Source of the DNA: Rhea pennata
Lineage: Eukaryota > Chordata > Aves > Rheiformes > Rheidae
Direction: 5' to 3'
Assembly: GCF_028389875.1 (NCBI RefSeq)
Contig: NC_084675.1
Span: forward strand, 20,422,412 to 20,486,411
Length of the DNA: 64,000 nucleotides
The notes beneath the pieces are model-generated. The model was not told the DNA's origin and did no database searches. It saw only the letters and a list, made by a program, of their open reading frames with translations. Below, piece after piece: positions 9,062-62,500 of this stretch; position 1 is the stretch's first letter, and each line of letters opens with the position of its first letter. A program made the translations under genes and the position numbers.

Positions 9062-9172
9062 TTACTCAGTCTGTGCGTCATAGTTAGCCCCCCCTGCTTT
9101 CTTCAGCTCGTTCTTGATGTAGTCCTCATCCAGCTCTTTGTGGTCACTGATCACAAATTCTTTGGCAAAGTT
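9062..9172 (-). CDS. COTL1: COTL1 coding exon 4 (last)
   Basis: Thirty-six codons plus TAA (stop 9064-9062). The acceptor CTTTCACAG lies just upstream at 9173 and above. The translation begins NFAKEFVISDHKELDEDY and ends GGANYDAQTE, matching the C-terminal part of coactosin-like protein. It covers the last helix of the ADF-H domain and the acidic tail. The ELKKAGG segment keeps the lysine equivalent to human K131, implicated in 5-lipoxygenase binding. The junction with exon 3 is phase 0. Confidence 0.97.
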   Translation of the reverse strand, partial: NFAKEFVISDHKELDEDYIKNELKKAGGANYDAQTE

Positions 9173-18620: not shown

Positions 18621-18778
18621 CTGTACTACTTCCTTGACCAGTGTCTTGTCAGTCCCAGTTTTGGCTCTCTGCAGGCCACTGACACTCTCTCCAATCCAAG
18701 TGATGAGGGCAAACTTGACTCGCTTGCTCATGGCATCACCGGTGGTAAATCGGACAAAACCAAACAATCGAACATCAT
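18621..18778 (-). CDS. COTL1: COTL1 coding exon 3
   Basis: An exon of 158 nt. The acceptor is TCTCTCCAG| (AG at 18780-18779) and the donor is CAG|GTAACC at 18620. The first two bases complete an Asp codon split with exon 2. The translation contains DVRLFGFVRFTTGDAMSKR and TWIGESVSGLQRAKTGTDK, near-identical to human COTL1. It forms the core beta strands and the actin-binding part of the ADF-H domain, and the lysine equivalent to human K75 is present (SKRVK). No frameshift or lost residue is seen. Confidence 0.97.
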
Positions 18779-29319: not shown

Positions 29320-29402
29320 CTGTGCACTTCCTCGTGAAGGTTTCGTAGTCTACCCCTTGGTCTCCGGGGACGATTGTGGAGCCATCGTATTTAAATGTCA
29401 CC
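29320..29402 (-). CDS. COTL1: COTL1 coding exon 2
   Basis: An 83-nt exon with donor ACAG|GTAAGC at 29319 and acceptor CCCTAAG| (AG at 29404-29403). The first base completes the Trp codon begun in exon 1. The translation VTFKYDGSTIVPGDQGVDYE continues with TFTRKCT, against VTFKYDGSTIVPGEQG in human. The last G starts an Asp codon completed in exon 3. The 3' splice site is the terminal unit of a minisatellite whose other units carry similar acceptors. The unit with AG at 29452-29451 would keep the frame and add 16 codons if used. Confidence 0.97.
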
Positions 29403-29800
29403 CTTAGGGACGGGGAGAAGAGGAGAAGAGGAATATATTTAAAATTCACCCTTTAGGAAGGGGAAAAGCGGAGAAGGGGATTGACATACTTAAAAGTCAC
29501 CCTTTGGGAAGGGAAAAGAGGAGAAGGGAAGTAATGTATTTAAGTCAGTCTTTAGGTAGGAAAAAGGAAAAAGGGGGTTGATGTATGCAAAATACACCGT
29601 TTGGGAAGGGAAACAAAGGGGGGGCTGATGTATTTGAAAGACATCCTTCGGGAAGGGAAAAGGGGAGAATTGACGTATTTAAGTCAACCTTTAGGAAGGG
29701 CAAAGAGGAGAAAAGGGACAATACGTTCAAAAGTCGCTCTTGGGGAGAGGTGGTGGTGGTGTATTAGAAGACATCCTTGGGGAAGGGAGCGGAGGGGGAG
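29386..29800 (-). repeat. about 48-bp minisatellite spanning the COTL1 exon 2 acceptor
   Basis: On the minus strand each unit reads as a pyrimidine tract, then about CCTAAAG, then GGTGACTTTTAAATAC-like sequence. That is intron end, 3' splice site and the first bases of exon 2. Unit boundaries equivalent to the real exon start (29402) fall at 29450, 29501, 29549, 29598, 29645, 29688, 29738 and 29775. Spacings are thus 48, 51, 48, 49, 47, 43, 50 and 37. Units nearer exon 1 are more degenerate and G-richer on the plus strand, and a possible further unit lies near 29811-29840. The array fills most of the 542-bp first intron. Confidence 0.85.
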
Positions 29801-29944
29801 GGGGGCGGTGTGTCCGGAAGACCCTCGCCGGGAAGGGCGCGTAGCGCAGCGCTGCCGGGCCAGGCCGGGGCCGCGGGGCGCCCCCGTCGCCCGCCGCCGC
29901 TGCCCCGCGCCCGGCCCGGGGGTGGGCGGCTGGGGGGCACCTAC
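29403..29944 (-). other. COTL1: COTL1 intron 1
   Basis: A phase-2 intron of 542 bp, with donor AACTG|GTAGGT at 29944 and acceptor at 29404-29403. It is far shorter than introns 2 and 3 and is mostly the minisatellite described above. The exon 1 end merges into the promoter CpG island. Confidence 0.9.
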
Positions 29945-30021
29945 CAGTTGACGGCGGTGGCGTCGTCCCTGACGAGGTTGTACGCCTCCCGGCAGGCCTC
30001 CTTGTCGATCTTGGTGGCCAT
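29945..30021 (-). CDS. COTL1: COTL1 coding exon 1
   Basis: The start codon is at 30021-30019 in a good context (GCGCCCATGG). Twenty-five codons and two bases read MATKIDKEACREAYNLVRDD and continue ATAVN, with a split Trp codon. Human COTL1 starts MATKIDKEACRAAYNLVRDD, so the start is secure. It encodes the N-terminal helix of the ADF-H domain. The donor AACTG|GTAGGT is a strong site. Confidence 0.97.
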
Positions 30022-30082
30022 GGGCGCGGCGGAGGGCGCGGAGCGGAGCGGAGCGGCGCGGAGCTGGGGGGCCGCCTCGGCC

Positions 30083-30113
<31 letters not shown>

Positions 30114-30195
30114 CTGCAGCAGCACCGCGCGCGCCGCCGCGCGGAGCCGAGCCGAGCCCCGGCGCCGCTGCGGCCCGCCCCCGCCGCCGCCGCCC

Positions 30196-30280
30196 GCCAA
30201 TGGCGCGCCGCCTCCGGGCCCCGCCCCCGCCCCCTCCGCCAATGGCGCGCCGCCGCCCGGCCCCGCCCGCGCCGCCGCCC
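30196..30280. repeat. tandem CCAAT/GC-box duplication, 42-bp period
   Basis: GCCAATGGCGCGCCGCC begins at 30196 and again at 30238. Each copy is followed by a GC-box-rich tail (CCCCGCCC). The two copies form a direct duplication of a CCAAT plus GC-box module just upstream of COTL1. Confidence 0.75.
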
Positions 30281-46200: not shown

Positions 46201-46607
46201 TGAGATGTGGATTTTTTCCTCTCAGGCCCTCTCAGACTGATCCAACCCGAGCACTGGAACAGGAAAATGGGAGAGAAGGCCATGCCAACTAGAGCAGGAT
46301 GGGTTACTTCTGTTGTATGACACACTGTAGAGGATGCCTTAAAAAGTGATTGTCATACCTTAGCGCTCTGTAGCGAACAGGTATGAAAAGGATGCCTTAA
46401 AAAGTGATGGTTGTACCTTAGCGCTCTGCAGCCAGCAGTATGAATGTAGAGAAAAGTTACTGGGTAACTAACAGGATTAGGGATTCTCCTATCTTCAGTT
46501 ACTGTTAATTCTCTTGTTTAGTATCAATCCTTGTTAAATGCTAGGTATCTCAGTAAAATCCATGAGTACTAAGATGGATTTTTTTTTTTTTTGTTTGCCT
46601 GTCCTAG
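40205..46607 (+). other. KLHL36: KLHL36 intron 4
   Basis: A 6.4-kb phase-2 intron. The acceptor is preceded by a long T tract and reads TTTGCCTGTCCTAG|. It holds several homopolymer runs (for example A near 44380 and 45667, T near 42571) and a GT/T-rich stretch near 44940-45005. A 58-bp tandem duplication lies at 46332-46447. No nested gene was recognised. Confidence 0.85.
46332..46447. repeat. 58-bp imperfect tandem duplication
   Basis: GGATGCCTTAAAAAGTGAT starts at 46332 and again at 46390. Both units continue with a TACCTTAGCGCTCTG block and a GTATGAA end. It lies about 160 bp before the KLHL36 exon 5 acceptor. Confidence 0.75.
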
Positions 46608-47163
46608 ATTTACTTATGGCCATGCTGGAACAGTCTACAAGGAATTTGTGTACATTTCAGGAGGCCACGATTACCAAATTGGCCCATATAGAAAAAATCT
46701 GCTCTGCTATGATTATCGCACAGATGTCTGGGAGGAGAAAAGGCCAATGATCACTGCCAGGGGCTGGCACAGTATGTGCACCTTACAGGACCATATCTAT
46801 TCTATTGGAGGCAGCGACGACAACATAGAAACGATGGCCCGCTTTGACATTCTGAGTGTGGAGTCGTACAGCCCTCAGTGTAACCAGTGGACCAGAGTTG
46901 CTCCTTTGCTGCAAGCAAACAGTGAGTCAGGGGTGGCTGTTTGGGAAGGCAAAATTTATATTCTTGGAGGCTACAGCTGGGAAGAAACGGTCTTCTCCAA
47001 AACAGTCCAAGTTTATGATAAGGAGAAAAATAAGTGGTACAAAGGAACAGACTTACCCAAAGCAATTGCTGGTGTGTCTGCATGTGTCTGTGCATTGAAA
47101 CCTAAAACAGATGACAAAAAGAAAAAGACAAAAACAAAAAAACATCAAGATCGAGGAAGATGA
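46608..47163 (+). CDS. KLHL36: KLHL36 last coding exon: Kelch repeats and tail
   Basis: The exon starts with A completing an Arg codon, then [20 protein letters not shown]. It continues through further Kelch blades ([38 protein letters not shown]) to [10 protein letters not shown], and stops at TGA 47161-47163. The final segment is a basic tail rich in Lys ([17 protein letters not shown]), also present in human KLHL36 and possibly a nuclear or RNA/acidic-surface contact. This exon closes the Kelch propeller. Confidence 0.97.
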
Positions 47164-56114: not shown

Positions 56115-57989
56115 GTGGGGGCCGGGCCCGCGCTGCCGGGCCGGGGGGGGAGCGGGGGGCGCTGCCTGCTTGGGCAGGGCGGCCGGGCCCCGCGGCGCGG
56201 CTCGCCGGAGGGGGGAGCGTGGTGGCCGGGACTAGGCCCCGGGCGATTCTGCAGCCTCATTGAGGCGCCTCGGGGCGGGCGGCGCGGCGGGCGCGGGGCC
56301 CGGGCCGGGTGCGGCGCGGCGCGGGGGCCGCCTGCCGCTGCCCTTTACGGGATGCGGTCGGTGCTGCTCCCCCATCCGAGGCGTTGCGGAGCGGGGAGGG
56401 ATGGGGAGCCACTCGGTAGGTCGGGCTTTTTTCGGGGGGGAGGTTGGCGAGGAGAGCGGCAGGGGAGGTTCTATAAAGGGAAAGAAATAAGGAGATTTGT
56501 AAATTAATCCTCCTCCCCCCCCCCCCCAAACACACCGTAAACCTCGATGCATTGGGGTGCGAAGTGCCGCAAGATCGTAATGCGTGGGAATGGGTGTGCA
56601 GTTCCGCCGTCTCCCACTAACCAAACCAGCCAGAAGAATTACACATGGAGTAACAAAATCTGCAGGCAGACTAGCTTTTCTTGGAAAGTCAAAAGCTCGA
56701 TGCTTGGGTCTACTCTAGTTTATGCTTAAAACAAAGCAAATGGTCGAATGGGTCAAGGGTCTTCCCTCCCCTCCCCCAAGGAAAGAAAACTTTAAAGCAA
56801 AAATTTCTGGCAATATAAATGTTGCATTGGGGTGTGCATTTGCAAAACTTCGTAAAACTTTATTCTTTAGAGAGTAGTGAAGTTTAGAAAACTTAAATCA
56901 TGTTAAGTGCAGTTCTACTAAAGAATAGCACTTCTTTTTTGAGGGGGGGAATCTTTATTAAAATTTTAAGTATTTCTAATGTGATAATATATTAGCCTCT
57001 TTATTTTTTCTAAAGGTTGACAAAGGTATTCATACATTAAAATTGTATGCTAGTGGTACTGACTTTTTGCTTTAAAGAGAAGTTTGCAATTGGTGAAAAC
57101 TGTCATGACATTTCTTATCAAGATTGATTTTTTTAAAGTTTTTTTTTGCGGTAGATGTTCTGAGAACAGTTATGGTTTCTGAGGTTTGTTAAATTTTAAT
57201 GTGCAAGGCTGTGATTATAGAACTTTGTATTCTTAAACTTTCTTTCACAGTGGAGAAATCTCACTCTAGTTCTAGTACATTGGTTGACTGACCTAATGAA
57301 TGGTAATTAGAATGCAGTGTATATCAAAAGGCAGTGTGGAGGAAATTGTGTCCAACTCAGGAGCTGTTTCACTCTCTGCTTTCTCCTTCTCTTGAGTATT
57401 AGAGAGCAAAATACTAGACAGGAGCGCATGTAGCCAGTTTGATAAAACTGTGGGGCTTTCATTACGTTTTATTTTTTAATTTAAAACAATAAAGGGCATT
57501 TTTGTGTCTGTACTTAATTAAGTTGCTGTACTTACGTTGAAACAGTGCATACCCATAATTAAAACGAGACTGCAGATTCATCTTTTTTCTTCGCCTAGTT
57601 CTTGTTTTTTGTCAAGTGAAAGTCTTTGGATCTGGTCCTTTGTAGTTACTTGCTGTCAGTATTGTACTGTAGATCAAACCACTCTGTAAGTAAAGGTAGA
57701 TATTTAGGTCTCTTGAGGATTGCTGCTTAAATTTATGTATAATTCAGCAAACAGATCTGTAAGATTCTTTTTTCAGCTAATGCTGTCTTCATGTCATTAA
57801 ACACAGCCTCTTGGTGAGTTTTTTTTCCTCTAGTATATTATAAACCGTTTATTTAAATGGTGCTTTGTATTTATATGAGCACGCATTCTAGAGCAACACA
57901 GCACTGTAATGCTGAAATAAGGTAACGATGTTTTGTACTTTGGGGACAGAGGACATGAAAATAAGTTTAGGGATGTAGTTTTGCATGTA

Positions 57990-58089
57990 GGTATTTCCTT
58001 TTAATTTTAGGATGACAGCATATAGGTTATTTCCTTTTAATTTTAGGATGACAGCATATAGGTATTTCCTTTTAATTTTAGGATGACAG
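57990..58089. repeat. three-copy 35/36-bp tandem repeat
   Basis: Units start at 57990, 58025 and 58061. Each contains TTTCCTTTTAATTTTAGGAT and then GACAG. The core is a pyrimidine tract plus TTTTAG|G, resembling a 3' splice site three times over. It lies in USP10 intron 1. Confidence 0.8.
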
Positions 58090-59502: not shown

Positions 59503-62500
59503 GTCAAGTCCCTGGAATGCAGTAAAAACGATGTGTTAGTTGCAGGGGGCACCCCAAGCACAAAATGAAAAGTTGCTCTGGACAAGCAGTACCATTGGAT
59601 GGGTTTGGAGAGAGGTGTTGAAGTGCATCATCATACTGTGATGGCCTGTCCTGCTTGGTCATTCTTTTGTGTTTTAAGGGAGTAAAGAAAGTGGACCCCC
59701 CCCCCCCCCAGTTCTGTTTTCTTTTTCTCTTAGAATCCCTCATTCTTTGCTCATAATTGCTTGGTTTGGTCCTTCTGCTAGAGCTCTTGCCCTCGCAGAG
59801 AGTAGCTTTTCTGGGCTTCTGTGTTCTCGGGCAGCAAAAGTAGCTGCAAGTTTGGGTGGCCAGAAGGGATCGTTTCTAAAATGTGAATGGTAAGTCTGCA
59901 CAGGGTAGTGTGAATGTGGGCTGGTTGTTTTAAAAAGGAAGTCTGAGAAAATTGACATAGTACTTATTTGTGTGCCAACGTGCAAATAATAGAGTAAAAA
60001 CTCTACAGTTTTTCTGAGTCACTGCTATTCTGTGAATTTTAGACTATAGTATTGGCTCAGAGACTTTTTTAGAATGGATTCAGCCATTTACATATTAATA
60101 AGTCTGGTTTTTGTAGGCAGTTGCTTAGACACACTGCTGTTGCCATTACTGTAGCTATTAAAATATTTGTAAAGTTAAAGTGGAGTTCTGCTTATAGGTA
60201 AACTAGGCTGTTCAGTTTCTGTTTATTGATATGTATGCAACATGCTGTGTCGTACAAAACAGACAAATCTGTTGTAATAGAACTTGCTGGCCTTGGGCCA
60301 TTGGATTATAGTCATTTGTCACTCTAATGCCATTTCAGCAATGTAGATGTTCATTTCCAAAGAATTAAACATGCTAGAACTGCGTTTTTTCTTTTTAATA
60401 GAAGTATTTTAGGTATGATCGTTAAACATACAACTCAGGATTATGGAACAAAAGATTACGCTTCATGATGGAAAAAGTGTGTGTGTGTAGATGTATCTGG
60501 GCATATATATGAATACTCTAATGGAATAATCTGATATTTTAGAATTGGGATTATAAGCCCTATTTTTGTTTTACAAAACTGTAATTTATGAGTTAAGGCT
60601 ACTTATAATAAGCAATGTTCACAATAAAAATGAACTTTTTACTGTATTTCTTCCGTAGATTATTTTTAAAAAACTGTAAAGATTTTTTCAAGATTAGAGT
60701 TCAAGAGACTACATCCATTAATTCCCCAGGAGAGCAGAACTTTAAAGTATGTTATTCTCTTTAATTTTTTACTTGTCTCTTAATACTTGATTTAATTGCA
60801 GGTGTCCCTAATATTTTAAATACATCCCCCCCTTATTTGACACCATAAAGTCTTCAGTGCATGCTGCAAGGTCTATTTTTTGTAGTTAGATGGGAGGTAC
60901 TTTAAATCACAGTAGTCCGGACATAGTGATTGTGTTAGGCTTATTTAAAGCATACACCTCCCCCCCCCCCCCAAAAAAAAAAAAAACATATGCTTAACTT
61001 AAAACTGAGAAAGAGATGTTGATCTTCTGATAGTTACAAGAATTGCCACAGTAGAAACTAAAATAAATGTTCAAGCATGGTTTTGGGAACGTTGCTGTTC
61101 ATAGTATCGTGTGAATTCCTGTCCTCATATGTGAGAGTTCTAAAAGAAGCATTTTATACGGTTTGCCTTGGAATTTTATAATCTAAGAAAGAAAGGGATG
61201 TGGAACAACTTTCATTGAATGTAATGTTAATACCAACTGGAAAATCATAGAGTTCTGTAACTCTCTTATTTTGATAAAGGGATTGGGATCAGCTTTGAGC
61301 AGGAAGAAGTGAAATACCATATCTGTAAGAAACTATATAGAACATCTCTCTAAAGGTCATGTGAAAGAATCAACTTAAAAAAATTCCTCAAAGAATTATG
61401 TGTATGAAAGACATTTTTTTGGTATTTTTTTTTGTTTGAACTAAACTGAACATACTAGCAGAAATAGCAATGCTGTATTCCCTTAGTGCAATGGGCAAGT
61501 TTTTTCATACAACGTTTAGAGTTTACAGTAGTAGTTCACAAATATCCTGCCTCATTTTTCCTATGAAAGTTACAGGTTAGTATCCTTCATGCAAAGAAAG
61601 TGAAGGCATTTGTCATGAAAGCATTTTATCTTGTTTGAGTGGGATTATTTTGCAAGTAGTGTAGCAATGTATAACCAGTGGTGGTGATCCTTACACTATC
61701 AAGGAAATATTCCTCTTTTCATGATGATTTAACAGCTTTGCCATATGCGCATATCTATCTCTACGGGAACATATAAATAATTTTCTCTTTACACTGTGTA
61801 AGGGAAAAAAATTTTTTTTGAAGTTGATTTAAGATAGCCAGTTTTATTAGCATTGAAGCCTCCCAAAATGCAGACAGGATTACCAGGTTACCAGATGACA
61901 AGAATAGGTTTTCCAGATGTGTTGACTTTTGTTATATGAATTTATCAAGACTTCAAATTATGTATATGTTATCAAACCACAGATTTTTCCACTCCCGGTT
62001 TTCTGATGAAGAGGCATTGTTGCATGTGCCACCCCTTTGATCTGGCTCAGCATAAGCCTTAAAGAGAAAAACGAACACAGAACTTACCTTCTTTACCAGA
62101 TGGGAGTGAATGAAACTGGACTGTGACAGCAAAAAGGGACAGTAGAGCCAAGTTATTGATAATCCCTTTGATTCTTCCTGAAAGCATTTAGATGGATGAA
62201 GAGGAAAAGTAAAGAAGTTCAATTGTTTAGTTTAAAGGAAAAAAATAGACCGATATTCAAATAATATTTTTGTGCCGTGCTAGTTGGTAGAGGATTTGAT
62301 TAAAATTGATGTTATACATGAACATAATATGTTTTTTTCGACTTACAATATGGGCAGATGCAACAAAAGGAAAGGAAAATAAACCGTAGAGAGAAAGAGG
62401 TATGTTCAGCACAAGTTAGAATTGAAATGCTGGAAGAATCCAGTTCTCTTGAGTTGCAGCCTCTTCAGTCTGGCCATTAAATCATATGGTCTCTAATAAT

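Follow-up and report, generated by a model that had tools for sequence, protein, structure and literature searches.

A tandem array of splice-junction units in the first intron of COTL1 of Rhea pennata

Splice junctions repeated in tandem

Tandem duplications of an intron–exon boundary have been described in lancelets as "mirages" (PMC3087553, PMC3902484). Splice signals are kept by many, though not all, of the repeats (PMC3087553), and data on the Adh3 and globin mirages are taken there to indicate regular splicing (PMC3087553, PMC3902484). Imperfect copies (PGBD5) and degenerate intronic repeats (BflGb13) are also counted among the lancelet mirages (PMC3087553). On the donor side, intron 7 of human F7 has highly homologous 37-bp repeats, variable in number, of which the most upstream donor alone is normally used, in keeping with oriented scanning (PMC6627357). 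An intronic VNTR that alters splicing is known from TERT: VNTR6-1, with a 38-bp unit and a position some 3.5 kb upstream of exon 7, reportedly acts through G-quadruplexes (PMC11830802).

Here, a tandem array was analyzed in intron 1 of COTL1, the gene for an actin-binding, coactosin-like protein on the minus strand of a 64-kb window of Rhea pennata DNA, the window being the whole stretch analyzed (contig positions 20422412-20486411). In three sequence features the array agrees with a mirage: its unit spans the boundary, with 24 nt of intron and 17 nt of exon; it is tandem and minisatellite-like, with several copies (eight intronic ones and the true junction); and many copies carry the splice dinucleotide, AG being kept in seven of the eight intronic ones. 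As in lancelet BflGb6, the unit runs from the 3' end of the intron into the beginning of the following exon, and the copies lie upstream in the intron. BflGb6 units are 150–160 bp long, 81–100% identical and subject to haplotype length variation, whereas those of COTL1 measure 37–51 nt and are 55–88% identical; for lancelet Adh3 the corresponding unit length is 10–72 bp. The use of mirages in mRNA has been tested in lancelets; the COTL1 array is described here from its sequence.

Each repeat of F7 intron 7 holds a donor-like site, and COTL1 shares with F7 a tandem repeat of short units that is built on a functional vertebrate splice site and forms a row of similar sites. The two differ in side and in the site concerned: F7 represents the donor side with the most upstream site used, and COTL1 the acceptor side with the last site expected to be used. 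In line with this, no COTL1 unit match covers the donor at 29944, unlike the F7-type unit, which carries the 5' splice site. VNTR6-1 of TERT is likewise an intronic minisatellite, one whose consequence for splicing is reported as established, and unlike the COTL1 array it is not built on the splice site. The initial annotation had presented a minisatellite seeded on a functional splice junction as out of the ordinary. Novelty could not be upheld, as the lancelet mirages have the same arrangement (PMC3087553, PMC3902484); it is nonetheless unusual, its nearest relatives being those mirages and the repeated donors of human factor VII. Among the matches listed, a literature search returned nothing on a COTL1 array or a bird mirage, which does not prove their absence from the literature, and a search for COTL1 intron splicing in chicken found nothing.

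Gene setting, units and register of the array

Coding exons 1–4 of COTL1 are present in the window, with the frame open where matched (Table 1). The translation of exons 1 and 2 (53 residues) matched coactosin-like protein 1wm4 with E 1.7e-24, and the alignment with this solved structure, which we take to be that of the mouse protein, runs without a gap across the exon 1/exon 2 junction. Exons 3 and 4 were located by tblastn using the mammalian protein as query. The acceptor of exon 2 is AAG and those of exons 3 and 4 are CAG. The exonic part of the unit is coding and aligned without a gap to 1wm4, which bears out the earlier suggestion that the junction on which the unit was seeded is a functional one. 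The plus strand of the same window carries a BTB/BACK/Kelch gene, presumably KLHL36. Both genes have a further repeat nearby: a G+C-rich 42-bp repeat of 2.7 copies at 30161-30273, which ends some 140 nt short of the COTL1 start codon on its upstream side, and a 58-bp unit present twice (87% matches) at 46331-46444 on the plus strand, with a Kelch-coding exon about 160 nt downstream.

Table 1. Features of COTL1 and of the array in its first intron (window coordinates). E-values of copies 1–8 are for matches to a profile that these intronic copies themselves built.
Feature	Position	Strand	Basis or remark
COTL1 exon 1, coding part	29945..30021	minus	sequence; ATG 30021-30019; 3' end ...AACTG
COTL1 intron 1 donor GT (GTAGGT)	29943..29944	minus	assigned from sequence and reading frame
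COTL1 intron 1, 542 nt	29403..29944	minus	ends from sequence and frame; exon joining checked by translation
COTL1 intron 1 true acceptor AG (CCCTAAG/GGTGACA)	29403..29404	minus	sequence; intronic-copy profile match 29426-29386
COTL1 exon 2	29320..29402	minus	29402-29386 (17 nt, exon start) belongs to the repeat unit
COTL1 exon 3	18621..18778, 3' end approximate	minus	CAG acceptor; tblastn match at 18779-18621, 94% identity over 53 residues
COTL1 exon 4, coding part	9065..9172	minus	CAG acceptor; tblastn match at 9175-9065, 89% identity over 37 residues
Whole array, nine splice-junction units (eight intronic and the true one)	29386..29803	minus	Tandem Repeats Finder (TRF), repeat search, AG-anchored alignment, profile
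Copy 1 (farthest)	29757..29803	minus	AG 29777-29776; profile match E 1.1e-6
Copy 2	29719..29764	minus	AG 29740-29739; profile match E 1.8e-6
Copy 3	29671..29716	minus	AG 29690-29689; profile match E 5.4e-9
Copy 4	29626..29673	minus	AG 29647-29646; profile match E 1.9e-10
Copy 5	29579..29625	minus	CG 29599-29598, AG lost; profile match E 9.6e-9
Copy 6	29532..29577	minus	AG 29551-29550; profile match E 5.5e-6
Copy 7	29482..29529	minus	AG 29503-29502; profile match E 3.8e-11
Copy 8 (nearest)	29431..29478	minus	AG 29452-29451; profile match E 2.8e-10
Copy 8, exon-derived A-bearing stretch	29434..29446	minus	inferred branch-point place for the true acceptor

The array is a real and well-defined feature. 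Tandem Repeats Finder reported it at 29391-29528 with period 48, 81% matches and score 172, in agreement with the tandem repeat of about 48 bp first noticed in this intron, and a repeat search found a 39-mer eight times (at least 67% identity to the reference) in 29391-29802, with spacings of 48, 51, 48, 49, 47, 43 and 87. AG-anchored alignment and the profile resolved eight intronic copies upstream of the junction, the approximate number originally proposed. Listed from the unit farthest from the exon to the nearest, their lengths are 37, 50, 43, 48, 48, 48, 51 and 48 nt; a unit of about 48 bp holds as the TRF period and not as a uniform length. The unit consists of at least some 24 nt of intron, comprising a pyrimidine tract and AAG, and of the start of exon 2, for which "16 or so" bases had been estimated and profile matches gave 17 nt. 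The seven AGs that the initial annotation listed, from 29452-29451 to 29777-29776, are all present, and copy 5, in which it placed the loss of AG near 29599, indeed reads CG. A ninth upstream copy at about 29823 resembles the unit by eye; it is absent from the matches to the full-unit intronic profile. The three-unit blocks 29775-29646 and 29645-29502 align at 0.69, as against 0.55 and 0.53 with the shorter remainder, and copies 3 and 6 have a common 2-nt alignment gap. These observations are suggestive of a higher-order three-unit structure, in a block comparison that is uneven in length.

Several controls were applied to the repetition and to its register. Seven non-overlapping copies at 66.7% identity or more were counted in 29370-29830, whereas of 100 dinucleotide shuffles 98 gave a single copy and the other 2 gave two, and identity at lag 48 was 0.429, versus a maximum of 0.381 over lags 10–199 in 500 shuffles. 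A whole-unit profile made from the eight intronic copies, exon excluded, matched the true junction at 29426-29386 (24 nt of intron and 17 nt of exon) with E 3.8e-6. Window-wide, its nine top matches were the nine units, eight of which are in the profile, and the next was 44601-44568 with E 0.06. A 22-nt post-AG profile, made from intronic copies only, put the start of exon 2 (29402-29386) in exact register; taken alone this match is weak, with E 2.3 per window and rank eight among the matches of both strands together, and a site at 60813, outside the array, outranks it. The exon 2 17-mer has 6 placements in 29427-30030, where 88 other COTL1 coding 17-mers averaged 0.8 and never exceeded 3; none of 200 letter shuffles of it reached 6, the maximum being 5.

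Other acceptors were surveyed in the same manner. Upstream copies numbered seven for COTL1 exon 2 and zero for exons 3 and 4, and the acceptor of the Kelch gene exon that starts at 46608 had a single one, exactly at threshold and perhaps due to a T run. Acceptor-like sites were defined as AG preceded by at least 16 pyrimidines in 20, with copies sought up to 450 nt upstream. Among the 198 such sites in the window, 190 had no upstream copy and five had one (two of these in the array); the three with at least two copies, 29502, 29451 and 29403, had four or five each. A survey of arrays (TRF score 70, period 20–150) covered 284 kb, namely the window and 22 stretches of 10 kb from the same contig, a sample too small for a rate, and found six array places. 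In two of them, the COTL1 array and an array of 2.4 copies in L009, the consensus unit has a pyrimidine tract and AG. With only six array places in 284 kb, chance alone would not be expected to put an array exactly on a splice junction. When 29391-29528 was searched against the rhea's own genome (1.27 Gb, 180 contigs), the three overlapping matches obtained all lay inside the COTL1 array; since simple repeats and very frequent words are passed over in such a search, this is no proof of uniqueness.

Two other repeats were recorded in these surveys. At 57983-58089 on the plus strand lies a 35-bp tandem repeat of 3.0 copies with an acceptor-like unit, TTTCCTTTTAATTTTAG/GATGACA; given its 95% matches it is probably young. 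It was considered as a second acceptor array and set aside, as no open exon was seen downstream on reading. A G+C-rich 29-bp minisatellite of about 12 copies (98% matches) lies at L009:5385-5735, about 45 kb from the low end of the window.

Splice signals of the copies and a possible branch point of the true acceptor

Pyrimidines occupy 16–19 of the 20 positions from -4 to -23 in the eight copies, each of which therefore has its own tract, as had been claimed; the true acceptor has 19 pyrimidines in these 20 positions, and an A at -3 is common to all nine units. By pyrimidine count and -3 base, the decoy acceptors are not visibly weaker than the true site. RNA structure hiding the decoys received no support from folding (z -1.56, with 9 of 100 shuffles folding equally well). 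In Drosophila, AG is reported to be under negative selection within polypyrimidine tracts, and the pattern in other eukaryotes is reported to indicate the same (PMC10946897). Among 47 dinucleotide columns of the array, three are kept in all eight copies, and AG and six others in seven of the eight. The retention of AG is not exceptional, and there is therefore no sign of selection for or against the decoys.

Reading from the decoys into the exon, six of the seven upstream AGs lead to a stop, and copy 5, which lacks the AG, would likewise read into one. The AG of copy 8 extends the coding sequence by 48 nt in frame, that is by 16 residues, and the frame is open through exon 2. Any use of upstream AGs would thus produce a premature stop at six of the seven and 16 additional residues at 29451.

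Within the last unit, the only adenines outside the AAG are those at 29446-29434, 31–43 nt upstream of the final base of the intron, and 46 nt separate the AG of copy 8 from the true AG. Because of the prior AG at 29452-29451 and the lack of any A 3–30 nt upstream of that final base, the branch point of the true acceptor would fall within 29446-29434, that is, inside exon-derived sequence of copy 8. If the AG is chosen by scanning from the branch point, correct splicing would need a branch point in this exon-derived stretch. The candidates that it offers, GTGAA, TTTAA and TTAAA, match yUnAy poorly, and we regard the chances for and against this location as evenly balanced. Each unit could in the same manner form a whole 3' splice module, the exon-derived A stretch of the prior copy serving the next tract and AG. 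A fuller proposal, that each duplication inserted the first 17 nt of the exon between two acceptors and that the resulting branch regions of coding origin would make the array a set of self-propagating 3' splice modules, with the real acceptor dependent on one of them and an isoform longer by 16 residues, is put forward as tentative and somewhat doubtful.

Origin, age and alternative readings

We consider it probable that the array is an old, degenerate mirage of the COTL1 intron 1/exon 2 junction and is mainly passive. The junction would have undergone repeated tandem duplication, possibly by slippage or unequal exchange, with the copies placed upstream within the intron. Because the exonic part is coding (VTFKYDG here, VTFRYDG in 1wm4), the exon is taken as the source and the intron as the recipient. 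Correct COTL1 mRNA would use the last AG, and the upstream AGs would be little used; protein conservation, we think, points to the use of this last acceptor.

The state of the units was assessed by pairwise comparison. Over 41 nt at the junction and in ungapped columns, the mean p-distance between units is 0.253, the minimum 0.125 and the Jukes–Cantor (JC) distance 0.31; whole-unit comparisons with gaps counted gave 0.48–0.76, with some units matching poorly. The near-identity of units that marks an active minisatellite or VNTR was not observed. Because the junction copies are 55–88% identical, the array looks old and quiet rather than active. If the neutral rate is about 2e-9 changes per site and year, a mean JC distance of 0.31 would make the array several tens of millions of years old. 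Nearness to the exon brought no clear rise in identity to the true junction (Spearman 0.43, p 0.29).

An alternative is that the copies form a ladder of functional acceptors regulating COTL1 output, with 29451 giving the longer protein and the others leading to mRNA decay. The AG kept in seven of the eight upstream copies, the pyrimidine content close to that of the true site, and a nearest copy that is in frame and stop-free to the end of exon 2 all speak for it. We nevertheless hold it to be improbable: AG retention equals the general level of conservation, lancelet mirages are reported to leave regular splicing undisturbed (PMC3087553, PMC3902484), and of the human F7 repeats only the most upstream donor serves in normal splicing (PMC6627357). 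Still less credit can be given to an ordinary pyrimidine-rich intronic minisatellite that adjoins exon 2 and resembles the exon start by chance. The exonic part is just 17 nt, some of the eight copies, compared with the exon over 20 nt with gaps allowed, match it poorly at 55–70%, and the post-AG profile alone places exon 2 at the E-value given above; yet the register is exactly at the splice site, profiles made without the exon recover it, and the shuffle and coding 17-mer controls, with the whole-unit profile, are strongly contrary, which makes this reading very unlikely.

Tandem arrays are also the usual places of assembly error; nothing specific was found here, and, false duplications in assemblies being near-identical copies, units that differ at about a quarter of their bases make an artefact hardly conceivable. 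Active arrays consist of near-identical units as well, and the divergence described above equally opposes an active, polymorphic minisatellite whose copy number would differ between individuals and alter COTL1 splicing. Its tandem architecture would suit such an array, and lancelet mirages vary in length, BflGb6 having 6 versus 3 units in two haplotypes (PMC3087553); we judge this reading only marginally less remote than that of chance likeness. On present evidence, polymorphism of the array is unlikely, and an effect of the array on COTL1 splicing, as judged from the sequence, is plausible.

As an old, mainly passive mirage, the COTL1 array would extend mirages from lancelets to a bird. Its diverged units allow the duplication to be dated through which birds share the array. 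With its series of like 3' splice sites inside a single intron, it is also a natural setting in which to test how near-equal acceptors are told apart by the spliceosome. If the branch point is exon-derived, a splice signal would have been rebuilt from coding DNA after duplication separated the acceptor from its old branch point.
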